A DNA stretch of 64,000 nucleotides, taken from positions 62,001-126,000 of the forward strand of contig CAMART010000005.1 in the NCBI GenBank assembly GCA_945860705.1, written 5' to 3'. The notes below the pieces were generated by a model. It did not search any database, was not told where the DNA came from, and saw nothing but the letters and a program-made list of their open reading frames with translations. A program made the translations under genes and the position numbers. This document shows positions 2 to 53,411 of this stretch, piece after piece. Source of the DNA: Chitinophaga pinensis. GTDB lineage: Bacteria; Bacteroidota; Bacteroidia; Chitinophagales; CAMDFR01. Every line of letters starts with the position of its first letter. Positions within the stretch are counted from its first letter, which is position 1.

Positions 2-3000
2 CTTTCTATAAAAATAGTAGACAATAATAATAATGGAAAACTAGAAGCTGGAGATTTCTTTGTGTTTTATGCAGAAGGGTCTACAGTATGGAGTTATGAT
101 AATGTGTCTAATTTATTTGTTCATAGCAAAAATTTATATAGTTACAAAGCGTTTTATTTTATCACAACAAATAGAGGTACTAGAAAGTCTTTTTCTACAC
201 AAGCTTCTACTGTAGGGGGCACTCCTATATCTAGTTTTGACGACTACGCATTTTTTGAGGATGAAAGAAATAACTTACTAAAATCTGGTAAATTATGGTA
301 TGGCGAAAAAATGAGTAATGTAAATAATGTACTGACTTATAATTTTGATTTTCCAAATATAGATGGTAGTGAACCCTTTAAAGTAAGGTCTCATATAGCA
401 GCTCGTTCTGTACTTGCAAATACACAAGTAAGTTTGAGTATCAATAGTGTCAATTTTCTTACTCATAATGTAGGTGTAGTACCAGGTACATATACAGCAG
501 ATTTTGCAGCAAATAATTTAGCTACAGCTTCTAGGAATATAAATACTAGTGCAATAACAGCTACTTACAATTTTTCAAATCCAGATAATAGTGCAAATGC
601 ATGGATAGATTATTTAGAAATAAATGCCCGTAGACAATTGTCTTTTACTAATAAATACATGCTTTTTAGAAATAGTAGAAATATTTCCGCAGGAGCAATA
701 TCGAAGTTTCAGTTAAGCAATGCAGGATCAAATATTGCAGTTTGGGATATTACTGATATGTTTGATGCAAAAGATCAACAAGTTAATCTTGTAGGAAGTA
801 CTTTAGAATATTCACTTACAACACCGATTATTAGAGAGTTTGTAGCTGTAGATATGAATGCTATTTCTACTTTGAGTCTTCCAAGTTTTGTTGAGAAAGT
901 AAACAATCAAGACTATCATGCAGTGGCAAGTAGCCATCCAGACATGGTCATTGTGGTATCAAATGAGCTAAGTAGTTATGCTACATCCTTAGCAAATTTC
1001 CATCAAACAAGAGATGGCCTGTCTGTATCTGTAGTGAATACTCCTCAGCTTTATAACGAGTTTTCTGGCGGTATCAGCGACCCTACAGCTATAAGAGATT
1101 TTATGAAAATGCTCTATGAGTCTGCAGGAAGTGACCCAGCTCTATTACCCCAATATCTTTTGCTATACGGAGATGCTTCATATGATCCACAGACTGGAAG
1201 GTCTCAAACAGAAAACACGTTGATTCCTACTTATGAAAGTGTAAATAGTTTATCACCTGTTGGCTCATACTGTTCAGATGATTTTTTTGCATGTTTAGAT
1301 GATGTAGAAGGTGCTGATATGAGTTCAAGTGGCAATATCATGGATATAGCAGTAGGAAGACTAGTGGCAAGAAGTGCATCAGACGCACAAGGAATAAATA
1401 ATAAGATATTTAATTATGTAGCTCCTGCTTCTTATGGTAACTGGAGAAACTCTGTTTCATTTATAGCAGATGACGGAGATAGCGAAACGCATATAGCAGA
1501 TGCTAATAACGTTTCGAATAATATGGCGTCTAGATATCCTGTCTATAATATCGATAAAATATATTTAGATGCTTATCGCATGGAATCTACGCCAGCTGGT
1601 AATAGATATCCTGATGTAAATAATGCTATTCAAAATAAATTATTTCAAGGTTCATTAATCGTAAGTTGGGTAGGTCACGGAGGTGTTCAAAACTGGGCTC
1701 ACGAGCGTATTTTTGATGTGTCAGATATAGAAGGACTTAGAAATTTTGATAGGCTACCACTTTTCTTTACAGCAACTTGTGATTTTAGTAAATTTGATGA
1801 AGAAGGCATCACTACAGCTGGTGAAAAACTTTTGCTTAATAGCCAAGGTGGTGCTATAGGTCTTGTTACTACTGTGAGATTGGTCTATTCATATGCAAAT
1901 AGCGTTTTAAATAATGCATTTTTTAATAGAGTGTTTGAGCCATATGCTGGTAGAAATCCTACTATGGGTGAGTTAGTAATGGAAACAAAAAATCTTATGA
2001 CAGATGCTGTTAATACTAGAAAATTTACCTTGCTTGGAGATCCTGCACTCACACTTGCCTATCCAGAATTCAACGTAGTCACTACTGAGCTAAATAATCA
2101 ACCTATTGCTGGTAATATAGATACTATGAAAGCATTGAAATTTATTACTATAAAAGGAGAAGTAAGAGACCTGTCAAATAATAAAATGAGTAGCTTCAAT
2201 GGTACAGTATTTCCTACAGTATTTGATAAAAAACAAACTATTACAACATTAGGCAATGGCACTAATAGACCTTATACTTTTAGCCTACAAAAAAATGCGA
2301 TTTTCAAAGGTAAAGCTACAGTTACCAATGGTGAATTTACATTCTCATTCTTAGTTCCAAAAGATATTGATTATAGTATTGGCAATGCAAAAATAAGCTA
2401 TTATGCAACAGACAATTCTACAGATGCACACGGATATACGTTTGATGCCTACGTAGGTGGAGTGGCTGATTCATTTGGAGCTGACGATGAAGGTCCTACT
2501 TTGAGAGCATTTATGAACGATGAAAAATTTGTTTTTGGTGGTACTACAAATGAAAACCCTATTTTACTAGTAAAGTTATTTGATGATAATGGAATAAATA
2601 CATCAGGAACAGGTATTGGGCACGAGATTACAGGTGTGCTTGATGCTGATGAAAAAAATAAATTGTTTTTAAATGATTTTTATGAAGGAGAAACGGATAA
2701 TTATAAGAAAGGTACCGTAAAGTATCCATTTCATAATCTCACAGAAGGTAAACATACTCTAGAAGTGAAAGCTTGGGATACTTATAATAATAGTGCGAAA
2801 GCCTATACGGAATTTATAGTAGCAAAAACACCTAAAGTTGCTTTGAGTCATGTACTCAATTATCCAAATCCATTTACTACTAGTACAAATTTTATGCTCG
2901 AGCATAATAGACCTGGTGAAGAAATAAGCATTGTGATACAGATATTTAGTCCATCTGGTAAAATAGTGAAAACTATACACGAAACAAGACAAACAGAAGG

Positions 3001-3142
3001 ATACAGAATAGATGATATTCACTGGGATGGTAGAGATGATTATGGAGATAAGATAGGAAAAGGAGTGTATATTTACAAGGTAAATTTAAAAACTTCTGAA
3101 GGAAATGCACATCAATTTGAAAAATTGGTGTTATTACAATAA
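2..3142 (+). CDS. porU: Type IX secretion sortase PorU (5' end outside window)
   Basis: Gingipain-type (peptidase C25) protease of the type IX secretion system. In known systems PorU sits on the cell surface, removes the C-terminal sorting domain of cargo and attaches the cargo to lipopolysaccharide. The frame is open from base 2, before the first possible internal start (GTG at 62), so the gene begins upstream; 1046 residues are visible. The catalytic histidine lies in GHGG near base 1675 and the cysteine in TCDF near 1785. The last 90 residues form a sorting-type domain (NYPNPF, then GKGVYIYKV). porV follows after 26 bases, the porU-porV order known from other Bacteroidota. Family assignment is firm. 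Confidence 0.93.
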   Translation, partial: LSIKIVDNNNNGKLEAGDFFVFYAEGSTVWSYDNVSNLFVHSKNLYSYKAFYFITTNRGTRKSFSTQASTVGGTPISSFDDYAFFEDERNNLLKSGKLWYGEKMSNVNNVLTYNFDFPNIDGSEPFKVRSHIAARSVLANTQVSLSINSVNFLTHNVGVVPGTYTADFAANNLATASRNINTSAITATYNFSNPDNSANAWIDYLEINARRQLSFTNKYMLFRNSRNISAGAISKFQLSNAGSNIAVWDITDMFDAKDQQVNLVGSTLEYSLTTPIIREFVAVDMNAISTLSLPSFVEKVNNQDYHAVASSHPDMVIVVSNELSSYATSLANFHQTRDGLSVSVVNTPQLYNEFSGGISDPTAIRDFMKMLYESAGSDPALLPQYLLLYGDASYDPQTGRSQTENTLIPTYESVNSLSPVGSYCSDDFFACLDDVEGADMSSSGNIMDIAVGRLVARSASDAQGINNKIFNYVAPASYGNWRNSVSFIADDGDSETHIADANNVSNNMASRYPVYNIDKIYLDAYRMESTPAGNRYPDVNNAIQNKLFQGSLIVSWVGHGGVQNWAHERIFDVSDIEGLRNFDRLPLFFTATCDFSKFDEEGITTAGEKLLLNSQGGAIGLVTTVRLVYSYANSVLNNAFFNRVFEPYAGRNPTMGELVMETKNLMTDAVNTRKFTLLGDPALTLAYPEFNVVTTELNNQPIAGNIDTMKALKFITIKGEVRDLSNNKMSSFNGTVFPTVFDKKQTITTLGNGTNRPYTFSLQKNAIFKGKATVTNGEFTFSFLVPKDIDYSIGNAKISYYATDNSTDAHGYTFDAYVGGVADSFGADDEGPTLRAFMNDEKFVFGGTTNENPILLVKLFDDNGINTSGTGIGHEITGVLDADEKNKLFLNDFYEGETDNYKKGTVKYPFHNLTEGKHTLEVKAWDTYNNSAKAYTEFIVAKTPKVALSHVLNYPNPFTTSTNFMLEHNRPGEEISIVIQIFSPSGKIVKTIHETRQTEGYRIDDIHWDGRDDYGDKIGKGVYIYKVNLKTSEGNAHQFEKLVLLQ

Positions 3143-3168: not shown

Positions 3169-4407
3169 ATGAATATTAGAAAATCAATTTTAGGTTTGAG
3201 CATAGTAGGTACACTACTATTGAGTCATAATGGGGATGCTCAAACCACTAGAAACGGACAGACTTTGACTGTAAATACAGTAACCACCTCAGTGCCATTT
3301 GTAAGAATAGCACCTGATGCAAGAGCTGGTGGAATGGGTGATGTAGGAATAGCTACTGCACCAGATATGAATAGTATATTTCAAAATGCTTCTAGATTAG
3401 CTTTTGTACAAGGAGATTATGGAGTAGCGATACATTATACACCGTGGCTAAGAGCATTAGTAAATGATATCAATATGGTTACTATCAATGGATATTAAAA
3501 AATAAAAAAGAAACAATCAATAGGATTAGGATTGAGATATTTTTCTCTTGGTCAAATAACATTTACTGATAATACAGGACAAACGATAAGAGATTTCAGA
3601 CCTTATGAAATGGCTGTAGATGGGCACTATGCAAGAGCATTGAGCAAAAATTTTGGAGTAGGAGTAGGTCTTAGATTCATATACTCAAATTTAGCTAATA
3701 ATATCACACCTCAAGGAGGAGAGACTATCAGACCTGGATATGCAGGATCTGGAGATTTGTCGTTTTACTACAAACAACCTATCAAGTTAGGTAAAATGAA
3801 TTCTGAGTTAAGTTTAGGATTGGCACTTACCAATATAGGAAGTAAAATCACTTATACTAACTCATCTCAAAAAGACTTTATCCCTACAAATCTAGGTTTT
3901 GGTTTTGGTTATAAAGTTGAAATAAACGAACAAAATAGCATTGGTATTTATTATGATCTTAACAAACTTATGGTTCCTTCTCCAGATGGGTCTCCAAATG
4001 ATTCTACAAGAAGAGGTACGAGTGTTGTGAAAGGTATGTTTACTTCATTTAATGATGCACCAGGCTGGTCAGATGCAAGTGGCAATTATGTAAAAGGTTC
4101 TAGGTCAAAAGAAGAATTGAGAGAATTGATGCATGGTATTGCTCTTGAATATTGGTATGCTAAATTGTTTTCAGTTAGAGCAGGTTATTTCTACGAGCAT
4201 CCTACAAAAGGTGCACGTCAATTTTTAACTTTAGGTGTAGGTGTGAAATATTCTATTTTTGGATTAGATTTTTCATATTTAGTTCCTACTTCTACAGTGA
4301 AAAATCCATTAGACAATACACTCAGATTTTCTTTATTGTTTGATTTTAATAAGTCTGCAGCAGATCCATTATTTAAAAAGAAAACTGAAGTAGCTCCTAC
4401 TCCATAA
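3169..4407 (+). pseudogene. porV: Type IX secretion outer-membrane protein PorV, interrupted by an in-frame TAA
   Basis: PorV is the outer-membrane beta-barrel that brings cargo to PorU. A signal peptide (about residues 1-24) is followed by the family's conserved start of the mature protein (PFVRIAPDARAGGMGD). After TINGY at 3481-3495 the frame meets TAA at 3496-3498, then continues without a shift as KIKKKQSIG and through the rest of the barrel to TAA at 4405. Reading through gives 412 residues, close to normal PorV length. As I recall the family, this spot normally reads GYYK, so one base (TAT or TAC to TAA) explains the stop. It may be a sequencing error, a real recent null mutation or a readthrough site. 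The sequence alone cannot decide between these. Confidence 0.85.
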
Positions 4408-42580: not shown

Positions 42581-43489
42581 ATGAAAAAGAATTTATTTAT
42601 CTTTTTCTATTGCTTACTTTTTGTAAGTATAGAAAAATCTTTAGCTCAAAAACATGAGTTAGGAGTAGCTATAGGAGCATCCAATTTTTTAGGAGATTTG
42701 GGAGGAGCCAATGATATAGGAACCCCATTTATTAAAGATGTAGAAATAAAAGCATTTAGACCTGCAGCCTCGGTCTTTTATCAATACAATTTCAAAAAAA
42801 TAGTTTCAATAAATATCAGTCTTTCTGCTACAGAAGTAACAGGTAATGATAAGTGGGTAGACAATACCTATGGTACAAGATATTGGGCGAGAAGCTATCG
42901 AAATCTAAATTTTAAGTCTCCAATTATAGAGCTTACAGCTATGGTACACTTAGATTTATTGAGGTATAAAAACACTTATAAAACACATAGTTATTTCACG
43001 CCATTTGTTGGTGCAGGAGTTGGTATTTTTTATATGAATCCAAAGGCATTTTATAATGGAGCATGGGTAGCTTTACAGCCTCTGGGTACAGAAGGTCAAG
43101 GACTTCCGGGTCATAGAAAAAAGTATAGTCTTATACAACCAAATTTCCCTATCTCATTAGGGGTAAAATATCAATATAATAAACATTGGAAATTTACATT
43201 AGAATGCCTCCATCATTTTACGCTTACTGACTATTTAGATGATGTAAGTACAAACTATATAGATCCTACAGAGCTTTATGCAAATTACACGTCAGATAAA
43301 GCAGCGTTGACTTATGCATTAGGTAGGAGATCGATAGAGCTAGATAATGATAACACCTATGGAATCACTACTAGTCCAGGGCAACAAAGAGGTGATCCAA
43401 AAGATAAAGACAGCTATTTTATGTTGCTTTTTAAAGTGTCATATTTGTTTGGAACAAAAAGATATGACTACAATTGTTTTAAGAAATAA
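42581..43489 (+). CDS. Outer-membrane beta-barrel protein, DUF6089/PorG-like
   Basis: 302 residues: a signal peptide (1-22, cleaved after SLAQ), then HELGVAIGASNFLGDLGGAND, the start typical of DUF6089 proteins related to PorG of type IX secretion. Alternating beta strands follow (YFTPFVGAGVGIFYMNP, FPISLGVKYQYNKHWKFTLE) to the end. It lies 62 bases before the PorP/SprF gene and the SprB-like gene, which suggests a role in the same secretion route. The link to PorG is a similarity judgement. Confidence 0.75.
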   Translation: MKKNLFIFFYCLLFVSIEKSLAQKHELGVAIGASNFLGDLGGANDIGTPFIKDVEIKAFRPAASVFYQYNFKKIVSINISLSATEVTGNDKWVDNTYGTRYWARSYRNLNFKSPIIELTAMVHLDLLRYKNTYKTHSYFTPFVGAGVGIFYMNPKAFYNGAWVALQPLGTEGQGLPGHRKKYSLIQPNFPISLGVKYQYNKHWKFTLECLHHFTLTDYLDDVSTNYIDPTELYANYTSDKAALTYALGRRSIELDNDNTYGITTSPGQQRGDPKDKDSYFMLLFKVSYLFGTKRYDYNCFKK

Positions 43490-43551
43490 ATAAAATTTAT
43501 AGAAATGACCTATGATTTAAAGAAAAATATATATCTTAGTATGTTAAATAG

Positions 43552-44580
43552 ATGTTTATGAAGAAAAGTTTATTAATTGTTACTATTTTAAGTATTATTC
43601 TGATTTCTAATTTGAATGCCCAAGATATTCATTTTAGTCAGTACTACATGTCTCCTCTTACCTTGAATCCTGCACTCACGGCTAGTTTTAATGGTAAATA
43701 TAGAGTAGCTGCAAACTATAGAAATCAATGGTGGAAAATCACTAATAATTTTGGCACTCCTACTTTTCATACATACAGTGGATCATTTGATATGATTATT
43801 CCTACAAACTCTTGGGATAATAGTAAAATAGGAATAGGTTTGACAGTGTATGGAGATAGGGCAGGTAATGGAGCCTTGACCACACAAAGTGCATTAGTAT
43901 CTTTGGCATACCATAGGTCAGTAGATAGATTTGGTAGACATGTTATGTCTGTGGGATTGCAAGGAGGAGTGGCTACTAAGCGTGTTTTTATAAATGATTT
44001 AGTATTTGAATCACAGCTTCAAGATTTAGGATTCAATACAGATTTACCAAATGGAGAAATAGGAACTGCGGGGAAACCTGTGATTTATCCAGATGTAAAT
44101 GCAGGGGTGATGTGGCGCAGTAGTTATGATAGATTTAAATATAGTATTGGATTTAGTATGTATCATATTAATAGACCTCGAGAATCATTATTAGGCAATA
44201 GAGATTATAGACTCGATAGAAGATATGTAGTACATGCAAATGCTGAAATTAATCTATCTGATTATTTCGTAGTGGTTCCTTCGTTTTTATTTATGTATCA
44301 AGCAGCAGCTCAAGAATATGTAGGTGGTGCAGGTATAAAATATATTGTCAATGATGATACAAAATTACTAGTAGGTGCTTATTATAGATATAAAGATGCT
44401 GTGATACCAACAATAGGATTGAAATGGAAAGGACTTACTGCTGGAGTGAGTTATGATGTAAATACCTCTGGATTGAAAATAGCAACAAGAACTCAAGGTT
44501 CCTTAGAAATATCTGCAATCTATGTGTTTGGAGAAGACGACAGAAGAAGAGCAGATGAAAACTATTGTCCTGATTTTTAA
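43552..44580 (+). CDS. PorP/SprF family type IX secretion membrane protein
   Basis: 342 residues. A signal peptide (ending near LNA) is followed by the family signature QDIHFSQYYMSPLTLNPALT and NYRNQWWKI. Beta-barrel strands extend to the end (GLKWKGLTAGVSYDVN). A second ATG at 43558 would shorten it by two residues. PorP/SprF proteins bind type B sorting domains at the surface and are usually encoded beside their cargo. Here the cargo is the SprB-like gene 25 bases downstream. Confidence 0.93.
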   Translation: MFMKKSLLIVTILSIILISNLNAQDIHFSQYYMSPLTLNPALTASFNGKYRVAANYRNQWWKITNNFGTPTFHTYSGSFDMIIPTNSWDNSKIGIGLTVYGDRAGNGALTTQSALVSLAYHRSVDRFGRHVMSVGLQGGVATKRVFINDLVFESQLQDLGFNTDLPNGEIGTAGKPVIYPDVNAGVMWRSSYDRFKYSIGFSMYHINRPRESLLGNRDYRLDRRYVVHANAEINLSDYFVVVPSFLFMYQAAAQEYVGGAGIKYIVNDDTKLLVGAYYRYKDAVIPTIGLKWKGLTAGVSYDVNTSGLKIATRTQGSLEISAIYVFGEDDRRRADENYCPDF

Positions 44581-44605
44581 TATTTCATAAATAAAGCCAA
44601 AACAA

Positions 44606-47600
44606 ATGAAACATTTTTATACTTTTTTCCTTTTTTTTCTTTTTTTTTCAAATGCATATTCTCAACCATGCCTTATTTATAGTTCTACAGATACATCTTA
44701 TTGTAGGTGTTCGGGTACTGAGTGTTCACAGATTAAATCTACTGTTTCTGGGTTGAGTTTTAATCAAACTACAAGTTATTCAGTTTACAGTATCCCATAT
44801 GTTGCCACTTATCCTTGTGAAGGTCCAGGAACTAGAATTGACTTAAGTATTGATGATGTTCATTCAGCTGTTTTCCCCATAGGATTTAATTTCTGTTATT
44901 TTGGCAATACATATAATCAATGTGTAATATCTGCAAACGGTTATCTTACTTTTAATACAGCTTTAGCAACTACTTTTTCACCATGGTCATATACAGGAGG
45001 AATACCTCGTACAACTCCAGCCCAAGTATTAAATTCAATAATGTTTCCATGGCAAGATACAGATCCAGGTGTAGCAGGTGGTATTAGTGTTCAAACAATC
45101 GGTATTGCACCCTTCAGACAATTCGTTGTAAGATTTCTCAATGTAGGTATGTTTAGTTGTACTACTTTACGATTTACAGGTAGATGTATTTTATACGAAA
45201 CAACAAATAATATTGAGATGTTTATTACAAGTAAAACCACATGTCCGGGATGGAATGGAGGTATTGCTACTCAGGGCATTCAGAATGCAACAGGTACGGT
45301 AGCATTTACTGTACCAGGAAGAAATGGTACCTCATGGACTGCAGTTAATGACGCTTGGCGTTTTCAGCCTAATGGACCAGCACTTTCACAAAGTATCAAT
45401 TGGTATCAAATGCCATCGCGAACATATATTGGTTCTGGAGATTCAATAATGGTTTGTCCTAATGTTACAACAAATTATTTATCAGAATTTTACGTAGATC
45501 CTATATGCACCACACCAGGAGCTAGAATTTTTGCATATGATACAAGTACTGTTACTATTTTGCCTAGTATATCAAATCCTATTATAAATGATACCTTGAA
45601 ATGCCAAAATAACTATACATTATCTTTAGATCCAGGGTTGTCAACTTCTGGTTGTTATTCATGGAATACTGGAGCTACATCAAGAACTATAACAGTCACC
45701 TCTCCAGGCAATTATTTTGTATCACGGCGAATTAACTCTACTTCCTGTGACACTACTTATTTTAATATTGCATACATAGAACCTATGAATGTAAGTATAG
45801 ATAGTTCATCATTAAATTTAAGGTGCTATACTGATTCTGGTGGTTTTATTAGATATAAAATACTTTTTGGCAAACCACCTTACATTGTTAATGTAAATTC
45901 TATATTTACAACGTCTTCTGACTCTTTAACAAGTGTTTTTTTGACATCTGATACTTCATACATACAAATTACTGATCAAAGTGGTTGTCAATTTTTTGAT
46001 ACTATTTTTATAAATAGGCCATCCCAAATAATAGTAGATTCTATTATAGCTGATAGTGTTCTATGTTTTTCGGGAAACACTGGAAGTGCCAGAGTTTTTG
46101 TATCTGGTGGTACACCTTCTTCATTAGGCTATACTTATATTTGGTCAAATGGCTCTAATGTGTTTGATGCAACAAATTTATTATCTCAAACTTATACTGT
46201 TACAGTTGCTGATAGTAATTTATGTTTTATTGCCGATTCTATATTTATTCCACAACCTTCTCCATTCGTTATTGACTCATTCCAAGTTGATAGTGTTCTT
46301 TGTTTTGCTGGAAATACAGGTAGTGCAAGAGTATTTGCGTCTGGTGGCTCACCTTCATCATTAGGTTATACATATAGTTGGTCAAATGGTTCTACTCTAT
46401 ATAATACTACAAATTTATCATCTCAAAATTATATAGTTACAGTTACCGATAGTAATTTATGTTCAATAGTTGATTCAATTTTTATTCCCCAGCCGAATAT
46501 CCTCAGTTTAAATATATCGGGTATAATACCTATTAAGTGTATAAATGGTAATGATGGAGGAGTAATATTAGGGGGTATCGGAGGAAGTCCAACTTATGAA
46601 TATAGTATAGATGGTGTTTCATATTCACCTACTACTGTTTTGTCAGGTTTTAGTCTAGGTAGCCAAATAATAAGAATACGTGATGCAAATGGTTGTCTTG
46701 ATGATTCTACAATAGTTTTTACAAATCCATTGAGAATTTTACCTACAGTCAATTCAATAAGAAATGAATCTTGTATTGGTGCAAATGATGGATATGTGGT
46801 TATATCACCTACAAATGGAAGTCCTGGATATCGATATTCAAAAGATAATATACTTTATCAAGTGTCTAATCAGTTAAATGCATATGCACAAGGAACTTAT
46901 ACTGCATATGTAAAAGATACTAATAATTGTATAGATTCAGTAGTGTTTACTATTGGTAGAGTTGCACCATTGGTTTTAACTCTAGATAGTTCTAATGTTA
47001 CATGTAATAGAGGTAGTGATGGACAAGTCCAAGCTACTATATCAGGAGGAACTCCCACATATAGATATTCATTAAATGGTGCTCCATTTGTATTTTCAAA
47101 TATTTTCACTTCTCTTTCTCAAGGTTTATATAGAGTAGAAATAAGAGATACAAATAATTGTATTATTAGAGATAGTATTATAGTAAATCAACCGTTGAGA
47201 ATTGCACCTACAGTTCGTACTTATAATGTAAGTTGTTTCAACTACAATAATGGCAGTGTAAGAATAATTCCAACAAATGGATTTGGACCCTATTCATTCG
47301 CAGTTGATTCTTTAGTTTTTGATGTAAATGATTCTATCATAGGGATTAGTCCAGGTACTCATATGGCATATGTAAGAGATAGATTCTTATGCATAGATTC
47401 TATCAGTTTTAATATTACTCAGCCATCTGGAGTAGTAATTACACCTACCATGGTTAGAAATGTAAGTTGTTTTGGTGGTAATAATGGAATGATTAGAATC
47501 AATGTCACTAGTGGTACTTCCCCTTATACATATCTTTGGTCTTCAGGCTCAATACATGACTCAGCATCTGTTCTTATTGCGGGAATATATTTTGTTACTG

Positions 47601-49603
47601 TTACAGATGTCAATGGATGTGCTTTATCAGATACGTTTGTTATTACTCAACCTACAGTCTTGTCTGGTACTATGAGTAGAGTAAATATTTTATGTTATGG
47701 TGCTAATACAGGAACAGCCACTATTACTCCATCAGGAGGAACTATACCTTATGCTTATTTATGGAATGATACATTAGCCCAAACTACAGCCACAGCTACA
47801 AATTTAGTAGCACGAGCTTATACTGTTACCCTTTCAGATGCATTAGGATGTAGATTTGTAGATAGTATTACTTTAACTCAACCAGACTCAATAATCCTCA
47901 GCCGAACCTTTCGCAACATACGATGTTTCTCAGGCAATGATGGGCAGATAGTGGGAAGTGCAGTAGGTGGAGTAGGACCATATGAGTACAATATAGGCGG
48001 TGCATGGCAATCATCAGGAACATTCAATAGTTTAGTAGCAGGTACTTATACTCTTACAGTAAGAGACTTTAATGGATGTACTGCAAATACAAGTATTACT
48101 CTTACACAGCCACTCCGTATCATACCTACCATACTAGTAAATACACCACCACTTTGTAATGGAGGAAGCGATGGAAGTTTGCAAGTAGGTACTACCAATG
48201 GTACAGCACCATTCCAATATTCATTAAACAATATTAGCTATCAAGTAAGCAATACATTATCAGGATTGAGTACAGGCAACTATAGAGCTTATGTACAAGA
48301 TTCATTGGGTTGTATAGATTCTATTAATTTTACTATTACAGAACCATCAGTAATAGAGATAGATGTAGTGCCAACACAAAACAAATGTAATAATGATGCT
48401 ACAGGAGCCATTACCCTATCACCTAGAGGAGGAAGAACACCATACGAATATTCTATAGATGGAGGCACAAGCTTTGTGGGTACCAATACATTTGCAGGGT
48501 TAGTAGCAGGAGTATACAATATAGTAGTGAGAGATAGAAACAACTGTACGGCATCAGCAACTACCACTCTCAATAATCCAACATTATTTACAATAGATGC
48601 AAGTGGAGTAGATGTACAATGCTGGGATAGTGACAATGGTAAAATAAATATACTACCAAATGGTGGAACAACACCATACGAAAGTTATGGTATCTCACAA
48701 AACAATGTAATATTTAGCACTTCCAATGTTCCAGAATTTGCAAATTTATCAGCAGGTTTTTATTATGTAGAAGGCTTTGATGCTAATGGATGTAGAGCTA
48801 CAGATACTACAAGTATAGACAGACCACCAGTAGATACCTTTGCATTTGATATAGATAGTACAAGTTGCTATGGAGCACAATATCTAGATGGAAGTATCAT
48901 AGTAAGCGCACTAGCCAATCCACCATATACATGGACTATAGATGGAGGAGCCAGTCAAAACTTTGGAATCTTCTACGGACTTGGAGCAGGCTATCATTTA
49001 ATCATAGCAACGAATGCCAATGGATGTATCGATTCATTGATACAGTTTGTACCATTCCCACCACCGGTGATAGTAGATGTAGTGCCAGATACCGTATATC
49101 TAGAGTTAGGCGCATCACAGCAAATAAATGTAAACGTACAAAATGCAATCAATCCAACCTATGTATGGAATACGCTTCAAGGTCTGTCATGCAATGATTG
49201 TCCAAACCCAATAGTAAGTCCATACAATGATATGATCTATACAATACGAGTATATGACCACTCCCACCCACTCAATAGTAGTGAGTGCTATGGAGAAGCA
49301 ACACTCTATGTAATGGTAGAAGAACATATCAAATCGTATGTGCCTAATGCTTTCACACCGGGCAATACAGATGGAATCAATGATAAATTGATGGTATACG
49401 GAGAAGGTATCAAGAAATTACATTTTACAGTATATGATAGATGGGGAGAGTTGTTGTTTGAGAGCAATAGACAAGATATCGGCTGGGATGGAAGCTACAA
49501 AGGCAAGATACTAGGACCAGGAGTATATATCTATTATGTAGAAGCAGAATACTTAGATAGTAAGAAAGAATATTATCAAGGTAGTGTGACGCTTTTGAAA
49601 TAG
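44606..49603 (+). CDS. Giant SprB-repeat adhesin with type B (gliding-type) sorting domain
   Basis: 1665 residues. A signal peptide (1-19, after AYSQ) is followed by a Cys-rich N-terminal domain (about 20-290, with NGYLTFNT). About fourteen tandem SprB repeats of about 75 residues follow (about 395-1480), each with the pattern C.G..G...... GG..PY.Y and ending in D.NGC..S. A type B C-terminal domain closes the protein (YVPNAFTPGNTDGINDKL ... GWDGSYKGK). It is expected to be exported by type IX secretion and held at the surface by the neighbouring PorP/SprF protein, acting in adhesion or gliding. Codon choice changes near base 47880, inside the repeat region. Confidence 0.92.
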   Translation: MKHFYTFFLFFLFFSNAYSQPCLIYSSTDTSYCRCSGTECSQIKSTVSGLSFNQTTSYSVYSIPYVATYPCEGPGTRIDLSIDDVHSAVFPIGFNFCYFGNTYNQCVISANGYLTFNTALATTFSPWSYTGGIPRTTPAQVLNSIMFPWQDTDPGVAGGISVQTIGIAPFRQFVVRFLNVGMFSCTTLRFTGRCILYETTNNIEMFITSKTTCPGWNGGIATQGIQNATGTVAFTVPGRNGTSWTAVNDAWRFQPNGPALSQSINWYQMPSRTYIGSGDSIMVCPNVTTNYLSEFYVDPICTTPGARIFAYDTSTVTILPSISNPIINDTLKCQNNYTLSLDPGLSTSGCYSWNTGATSRTITVTSPGNYFVSRRINSTSCDTTYFNIAYIEPMNVSIDSSSLNLRCYTDSGGFIRYKILFGKPPYIVNVNSIFTTSSDSLTSVFLTSDTSYIQITDQSGCQFFDTIFINRPSQIIVDSIIADSVLCFSGNTGSARVFVSGGTPSSLGYTYIWSNGSNVFDATNLLSQTYTVTVADSNLCFIADSIFIPQPSPFVIDSFQVDSVLCFAGNTGSARVFASGGSPSSLGYTYSWSNGSTLYNTTNLSSQNYIVTVTDSNLCSIVDSIFIPQPNILSLNISGIIPIKCINGNDGGVILGGIGGSPTYEYSIDGVSYSPTTVLSGFSLGSQIIRIRDANGCLDDSTIVFTNPLRILPTVNSIRNESCIGANDGYVVISPTNGSPGYRYSKDNILYQVSNQLNAYAQGTYTAYVKDTNNCIDSVVFTIGRVAPLVLTLDSSNVTCNRGSDGQVQATISGGTPTYRYSLNGAPFVFSNIFTSLSQGLYRVEIRDTNNCIIRDSIIVNQPLRIAPTVRTYNVSCFNYNNGSVRIIPTNGFGPYSFAVDSLVFDVNDSIIGISPGTHMAYVRDRFLCIDSISFNITQPSGVVITPTMVRNVSCFGGNNGMIRINVTSGTSPYTYLWSSGSIHDSASVLIAGIYFVTVTDVNGCALSDTFVITQPTVLSGTMSRVNILCYGANTGTATITPSGGTIPYAYLWNDTLAQTTATATNLVARAYTVTLSDALGCRFVDSITLTQPDSIILSRTFRNIRCFSGNDGQIVGSAVGGVGPYEYNIGGAWQSSGTFNSLVAGTYTLTVRDFNGCTANTSITLTQPLRIIPTILVNTPPLCNGGSDGSLQVGTTNGTAPFQYSLNNISYQVSNTLSGLSTGNYRAYVQDSLGCIDSINFTITEPSVIEIDVVPTQNKCNNDATGAITLSPRGGRTPYEYSIDGGTSFVGTNTFAGLVAGVYNIVVRDRNNCTASATTTLNNPTLFTIDASGVDVQCWDSDNGKINILPNGGTTPYESYGISQNNVIFSTSNVPEFANLSAGFYYVEGFDANGCRATDTTSIDRPPVDTFAFDIDSTSCYGAQYLDGSIIVSALANPPYTWTIDGGASQNFGIFYGLGAGYHLIIATNANGCIDSLIQFVPFPPPVIVDVVPDTVYLELGASQQINVNVQNAINPTYVWNTLQGLSCNDCPNPIVSPYNDMIYTIRVYDHSHPLNSSECYGEATLYVMVEEHIKSYVPNAFTPGNTDGINDKLMVYGEGIKKLHFTVYDRWGELLFESNRQDIGWDGSYKGKILGPGVYIYYVEAEYLDSKKEYYQGSVTLLK

Positions 49604-52042: not shown

Positions 52043-52079
52043 TCTATCAAATGTAATGCTAAGATTTAAATATTTACAA

Positions 52080-53411
52080 ATGAAAACAAAATTTATTCTC
52101 CCGCTATTATTTTTTTATTTTTCAATTAGTGCTACTACTTATCATGTGCTATACTTAGGCAATAGTCTTACATATGTAAATGATGTGCCTGCACTAGTTA
52201 ATCAAATAGCCATAAGCAAAGGTGATACAATAGTATGGAGCCAGAATACTCCAGGTGGACATCAATTAGCCCAACATGCAACTAATCCAACATCTTTATC
52301 GTTGATTAGTGCTTATAAATGGGATATAGTTGTGATACAAGCACAGAGTCAACAAACTGCTTTCCCTGATGGACAGCTAAAAGTAGAAGTTTATCCTCCT
52401 TGCAAATTTTTGGTAGATAGTATACATAGAAACCATCCTTGTACTCGCGTGATGTATTATATGCCAGCAGGATGGAAATATGGCGATAATATGAATTGTC
52501 CAGTATTACCCGATATATGCACCTATGAAGGACAGTTTGGACGAATAAGAAAAACGCACTTAAACTTAATTGATAGTACAGAGGCAAGTATTATTCCATC
52601 CGGGGTGAGTTATAGAGTATCGCGTTTGCAAGATAGCACACTCGATTTGTGGAGTAGTGATAATGTACATCCAAGTCTAGCTGGTTCATACCTCACTGCA
52701 CTCAATATGTATGCAAGCTTTACTAATAAACCTACTTATGGGTCAAGTTTTGGTCCGATTGGTCTTACTACAGCAAACATAGTGTATCTCCAACAAATCG
52801 CTGATTCTGTAGTGTTTGATAGTTTGAGTACATGGAAGTTGGATATGCCTTTTCAAATTCTAGAAAATAACTTTGTTGTAAACGATAATCTTACTGATGC
52901 TTCAGGAATTGATATCAACAGAACTTATGCAGTATATGTAAATGATGCAAGTGCTATATATGATAGCGTTTACTATTTTTATAGAGTATCTTCTACAAGT
53001 AGATGGAATCCGTGTACTAATATAAATGACACACTTTTTTTTAATGATACATTATGTTTTGATCAAGGACAAATATTGCAAGTAGTAGAGGCATGTGGTG
53101 TTTATGATTCATTAATTAATGATGCATTTGAACCATGTTTTTTATCAATCGAATCAACTCATTTCTCCAACACATTCACACTTTACCCAAATCCAGCATC
53201 TGATAAAATAATTATAGAGAAGAAGAATAAAGAACACGAAAACTATTCAATAGAGATAGTAGACATCAATGGTAGGAAAATTATTGAAAGTGATTTTGAT
53301 GATAATATTAGTACAAAAGTAATTGATGTGAGTAAAATCAATAGTGGAATGTATTATGTTGTACTAAAAAATAAAATGAAAACATATAGTACTAAATTGA
53401 TAAAGGAGTAG
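52080..53411 (+). CDS. Secreted SGNH/GDSL-type hydrolase with type A sorting domain
   Basis: 443 residues from the ATG at 52080, which starts a clear signal peptide (MKTKFILPLLFFYF, ending near SAT). The SGNH fold shows block I as LGNSLTYVND (Ser near residue 26), an Asn/Gly region with TPGGHQLAQH, and block V as SSDNVHPSLAG (Asp and His). The last 80 residues are a T9SS type A sorting domain (TLYPNPASDKIIIE ... GMYYVVLK). Expected to be cut by PorU and surface-bound or released. Ester substrate unknown. Confidence 0.9.
   Translation: MKTKFILPLLFFYFSISATTYHVLYLGNSLTYVNDVPALVNQIAISKGDTIVWSQNTPGGHQLAQHATNPTSLSLISAYKWDIVVIQAQSQQTAFPDGQLKVEVYPPCKFLVDSIHRNHPCTRVMYYMPAGWKYGDNMNCPVLPDICTYEGQFGRIRKTHLNLIDSTEASIIPSGVSYRVSRLQDSTLDLWSSDNVHPSLAGSYLTALNMYASFTNKPTYGSSFGPIGLTTANIVYLQQIADSVVFDSLSTWKLDMPFQILENNFVVNDNLTDASGIDINRTYAVYVNDASAIYDSVYYFYRVSSTSRWNPCTNINDTLFFNDTLCFDQGQILQVVEACGVYDSLINDAFEPCFLSIESTHFSNTFTLYPNPASDKIIIEKKNKEHENYSIEIVDINGRKIIESDFDDNISTKVIDVSKINSGMYYVVLKNKMKTYSTKLIKE

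Follow-up and report, generated by a model that had tools for sequence, protein, structure and literature searches.

One in-frame stop codon in porV of a freshwater Saprospirales-type genome: very recent mutation or assembly error?

PorV (LptO) is the outer-membrane shuttle of the type IX secretion system (T9SS), represented by the equivalog family NF033710 and, in Flavobacterium johnsoniae, by the structures 6H3I and 8GL6-8GLN. The porV gene studied here differs from these in having one internal stop, at residue 110. This situation raises a twofold question: does the stop mark a genuine loss of the shuttle, a pseudogene, a recoding site or a wrong base in the assembly—and which surface proteins would be affected if the loss were genuine? 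We approached both parts by analysing the window (i.e., the whole stretch of DNA under study, 64,000 nucleotides long), the genome from which it derives, and the genomes of related organisms. The relevant features of the window are collected in Table 1.

Table 1. Coordinates of porV, its parts and other type IX secretion features in the window
Feature	Position	Strand	Evidence and remarks
porU sortase	62..3142	+	NF033707 1179 bits; intact, directly upstream of porV
porV reading frame	3169..4407	+	412 codons up to the final TAA, interrupted once; 440 bits with NF033710 when read through
Translated 5' part of porV, up to the internal stop: 109 aa with the N-terminal export signal region	3169..3498	+	
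In-frame TAA, codon 110	3496..3498	+	Tyr codon in 3/3 same-genus genomes
porV after the stop: 302 intact codons and terminal TAA	3499..4407	+	dN/dS ~0.05 vs sister species
PorG-like T9SS component	42581..43489	+	NF052316 130.7 bits, cut-off 130
PorP/SprF-family member, likely the adhesin's cognate shuttle	43552..44580	+	TIGR03519 202 bits; PF11751 144 bits
SprB-repeat adhesin with type B CTD	44606..49603	+	TIGR04131 45 bits; directly downstream of the PorP/SprF gene
Putative SGNH-type hydrolase with type A CTD	52056..53411	+	CTD 51.8 bits; DUF4886 marginal

The porV frame and codon 110 in relatives

The porV frame opens with an ATG, closes with a TAA and contains exactly one internal TAA. Read through this stop, the frame scored 440.1 bits against the PorV equivalog profile NF033710 (NCBIfam; profile positions 17-367), for which the cut-off is 250 bits, and its product matched the F. 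johnsoniae chain 6h3i_F over residues 37-394 with an E-value of 1.4e-65. Taken separately, the part before the stop reached 107.6 bits (profile 15-93) and the part after it 303.7 bits (profile 106-367). These results bear out the original prediction that a single TAA splits PorV within one frame and that the remainder of the frame is undamaged for about 300 codons. With the TAA at codon 110, the gene does not provide the uninterrupted frame that would give an exported outer-membrane barrel; the first start-type codon after the stop is a TTG at 3532, and the first ATG lies at 3610. The adjacent porU frame stays open for 263 more codons upstream, past the start of the window, and porU was also found just upstream of porV in all three same-genus genomes (G001, G002 and G003).

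Codon 110 reads TAT in G001 and G002 and TAC in G003, with no internal stop in porV of any of the three, and the proposal that a single base change suffices to turn Tyr into a stop agrees with these codons. The accompanying claim that Tyr is the normal residue stands within the genus (3/3) and fails as a family invariant: across 111 distinct relatives the position is occupied by Tyr in 53, by Lys in 37 and by Phe, Trp, Thr, Gly or others in the remainder, and the F. johnsoniae protein (6H3I) has Asn. None of these 111 PorV relatives contains an internal stop. Likewise, an order-wide search of 199 genomes, 184 of which encode a PorV equivalog, revealed no internal stop in the PorV of any other genome among the matches listed. 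Some apparent 'stops inside' PorV of other relatives were discarded, as they all fell at the C-terminus, from query residue 394 onwards or beyond the aligned region, where the alignment runs into the terminal stop. The picture is that of an ordinary single-copy gene in a freshwater Saprospirales-type genome, differing from its relatives by a one-base nonsense change.

To place the stop in its genomic setting, a hexamer-coding scan for in-frame stops was run over 454 kb and then 844 kb of the source genome (31.5% GC). In the 844 kb, no second long gene was clearly interrupted by an isolated in-frame stop—a result that is a lower bound, because the scan missed a stop followed by a short C-terminal tail in a gene on contig C10—and most of the other sites listed were, by inspection, gene ends or shadow frames. 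With no comparable isolated stop in 844 kb, the porV stop exceeds chance. The gene on contig C10 (~3.06-5.11 kb; L189:60-2115) encodes a cargo protein with a type A CTD and carries an apparent frameshift near L189:700 as well as an in-frame TAA at L189:1978-1980. Stops also interrupt the homologue in G002 (contig C30), and this cargo gene is decaying in both species. Given the apparent frameshift and the interrupted sister homologue, the C10 gene was treated as a separate decay, and the idea of a genome-wide pattern of in-frame TAAs was dropped. Elsewhere in the source genome, a small gene on contig C3 contains a near-perfect 40-base tandem duplication (~79.9 kb; L161:19880-19980), either real or an assembly artefact, that alters its reading frame.

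Selection on porV and age of the stop

The sequence downstream of the stop yielded a dN/dS of ~0.05 against the sister species G002, a value that is rough because synonymous sites are near saturation. We also compared the two branches, an approach independent of dN/dS. Polarised with G001 and G003 as outgroup, the amino-acid changes after the stop numbered 13 on the side of the source genome and 8 on the side of G002, against 61 and 42, respectively, for porU in the same comparison. Neither a raised dN/dS nor a further lesion on the branch was found, and the porV frame contains no second lesion. The low dN/dS and the similar branch proportions in porV and porU thus give no sign of relaxed constraint. 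The undecayed state of porV, together with ~120 type A cargo signals that are almost all intact, implies that the stop either arose very recently or represents a strain variant or an error in the consensus. In the same vein, intact copies of porU, sprA and 13 PorP/SprF genes, along with nearly the full set of type A cargo, would be unexpected had the only PorV been lost for long. The nonsense change at codon 110 is not old.

A check of the genome for a second PorV, suggested in the original prediction, recovered four further PorV-family genes, all intact—PorQ (C3:158 kb), PorV2 (C3:87 kb) and two unassigned members (contigs C14 and C19)—and no second PorV equivalog by the NF033710 profile. Three of these paralogues scored 48.8, 64.6 and 23.9 bits against the cut-off of 250, and the fourth had no PorV match. 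PorQ (NF033711) and PorV2 (NF052325) are intact paralogues of PorV but score far under its cut-off. PorV2 (439 bits with NF052325; L004:1420-2529) is an uncharacterised PorV paralogue found in most relatives of the order; it exceeded its cut-off in 21/25 of the group's genomes, the majority of them with an intact PorV as well.

Competing explanations for the stop

The four intact paralogues, PorQ and PorV2 among them, could suggest that porV is an old pseudogene, the lineage having given up PorV in favour of PorV2 or another family member. We consider this scenario scarcely credible: no paralogue comes near the PorV cut-off, PorV2 stands alongside PorV in most relatives and is hence no replacement arising here, and the lack of a second lesion, the low dN/dS and the branch counts reject decay of long standing. 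The persistence of purifying selection past the stop would equally be expected if the TAA were decoded as an amino acid with some frequency, giving full-length PorV, and the many residues tolerated at this position would accommodate such an event. Conserved recoding was nevertheless rejected, since the stop is absent from all relatives compared, including every other same-genus genome. Moreover, the 29 tRNAs found, an incomplete set lacking tRNA-Ala and tRNA-Ile, include none with the anticodon UUA that would read UAA; the RNA 3' of the stop shows no excess of structure over shuffled sequences (z 0.62) and no stimulating structure; TAA is the main terminator of the genome, ending 524 of 711 strongly coding ORFs; and prfA, encoding release factor 1, is intact within the window. 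Functional readthrough is accordingly very improbable, and low-level readthrough of the porV TAA, conceivable in principle, finds no support. A related idea, in which a genuine TAA, widespread in the population, acts as a switch for PorV—through leaky readthrough, or through coexisting intact and broken variants as an on/off strategy for ~120 surface proteins, e.g., under phage pressure—has, in our estimate, a very slim chance of being correct.

The explanations that carry weight are an error, a minor variant and a recent mutation. The assembly comprises 46 contigs and lacks detectable tRNA-Ala and tRNA-Ile genes and a 16S rRNA match, the last being supportive only, as the 16S search also missed 5/14 control genomes. 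Metagenome bins often come without 16S, tRNA-Ala and tRNA-Ile, and the assembly indeed looks like such a bin; the nearest relative of the source genome is a MAG, presumably of freshwater reservoir origin judging from its isolate name. Furthermore, because a random substitution in porV creates a stop in ~5% of cases, a consensus error rate of a few in 100,000 would be enough to yield a single isolated stop across 844 kb. We infer from these data, at a confidence barely above even, that the stop is not typical of the population's cells and represents a wrong consensus base in a metagenome-like assembly or a variant of a minor strain. Several considerations temper this reading. The A-rich context is not unusual, with stretches of at least six A occurring 125 times on this strand of the window; single-base substitutions are not the commonest assembly error, flanking A runs rather favouring insertions or deletions; and true recent nonsense mutations are common enough in natural bacteria to produce the same facts. 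A real, very recent nonsense mutation in the sampled population—creating a PorV null with undelivered type A cargo and displayed type B adhesins—is accordingly a serious contender, which we would put somewhat below an even chance. It would explain the clean one-base difference from the genus state and a gene not yet decayed, as expected of a young mutation, with no second PorV equivalog to mask the loss. Loss of the T9SS is viable in laboratory Flavobacterium, and the genome carries other genuine lesions, e.g., the decayed type A cargo gene on contig C10 with its broken sister homologue. Such a mutation could be transient or favoured, for instance by removing a phage receptor or a costly secretion process. 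Yet the ~120 dependent type A cargo genes are nearly all intact, which should make the loss costly and likely to be selected against, and the stop has no counterpart among the listed PorV matches of the order. Literature searches yielded no relevant report of porV nonsense mutants from nature, or of phage-resistant strains with stop mutations in T9SS genes. Overall, a consensus error, a variant of a minor strain and a genuine recent mutation agree with the data about equally well, and we lean slightly towards the first two. The alternatives originally put forward, a real null or an assembly error, were the right ones, and the codon-110 stop probably reflects either a very recent mutation or an error in the assembly of environmental DNA, with no new biological mechanism involved.

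Type IX cargo and the predicted effect of PorV loss

The source genome (2.94 Mb) contains ~120 type A CTD matches over the cut-off, one of them being the porU tail and almost all of them intact, next to 29 type B CTD matches, 13 PorP/SprF proteins (all intact) and an intact SprA. This inventory amounts to a heavy investment in type IX secretion. Within the window, genes for a PorG-like component, a PorP/SprF protein and the SprB-repeat adhesin stand in a row (42581-49603). In F. johnsoniae the shuttle gene follows the cargo gene, whereas here the PorP/SprF gene precedes its likely cargo. The CTD of the adhesin is of type B, with no type A CTD (TIGR04183) on this protein. The nearby type A protein we take to be an SGNH-type hydrolase, from its marginal DUF4886 match and the nature of the DUF4886 family.

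In F. johnsoniae, PorV collects type A cargo, and PorP/SprF proteins collect type B cargo independently of PorV (PMC12618676, PMC9143113). In line with this division, a passage of PMC8564354, citing Kharade and McBride (2015), states that an F. johnsoniae porV mutant still glides, with SprB not needing PorV. A porV mutant of Cytophaga hutchinsonii, by comparison, is affected in gliding and in both cargo classes, so the split between type A and type B is not universal. The original prediction had been that the stop should block surface display of both the SprB-like adhesin and the SGNH hydrolase. Considering the CTD types and the neighbouring PorP/SprF gene, this expectation can be kept for the putative hydrolase, which should depend on PorV, and not for the adhesin, the display of which would probably survive PorV loss; the predicted effect is narrower than first proposed.

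In a cell carrying the TAA, translation would end after 109 residues and PorV would be lost. A restart at the TTG at 3532, or at the first ATG downstream, would supply the remaining barrel without an export signal. The phenotype that we infer is that type A cargo (~120 proteins) would then miss its final place, and that type B cargo, served by PorP/SprF shuttles of its own, would for the most part continue to be displayed. Engineered porV mutants of F. johnsoniae, Porphyromonas gingivalis and C. hutchinsonii affect the same gene, and by analogy a null is expected here, with a predicted loss of type A delivery (PMC12618676, PMC8564354); in contrast to these mutants, the present change is uncultured and possibly artefactual. 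Should the stop be an error, it would call for caution, as a secretion hub then seems to be missing owing to a single mistaken base in a metagenome-like assembly. Should it be real, this genome would represent a natural porV null with ~120 type A and 29 type B signals—and, as such, a natural experiment on the PorV requirement of the two cargo classes.
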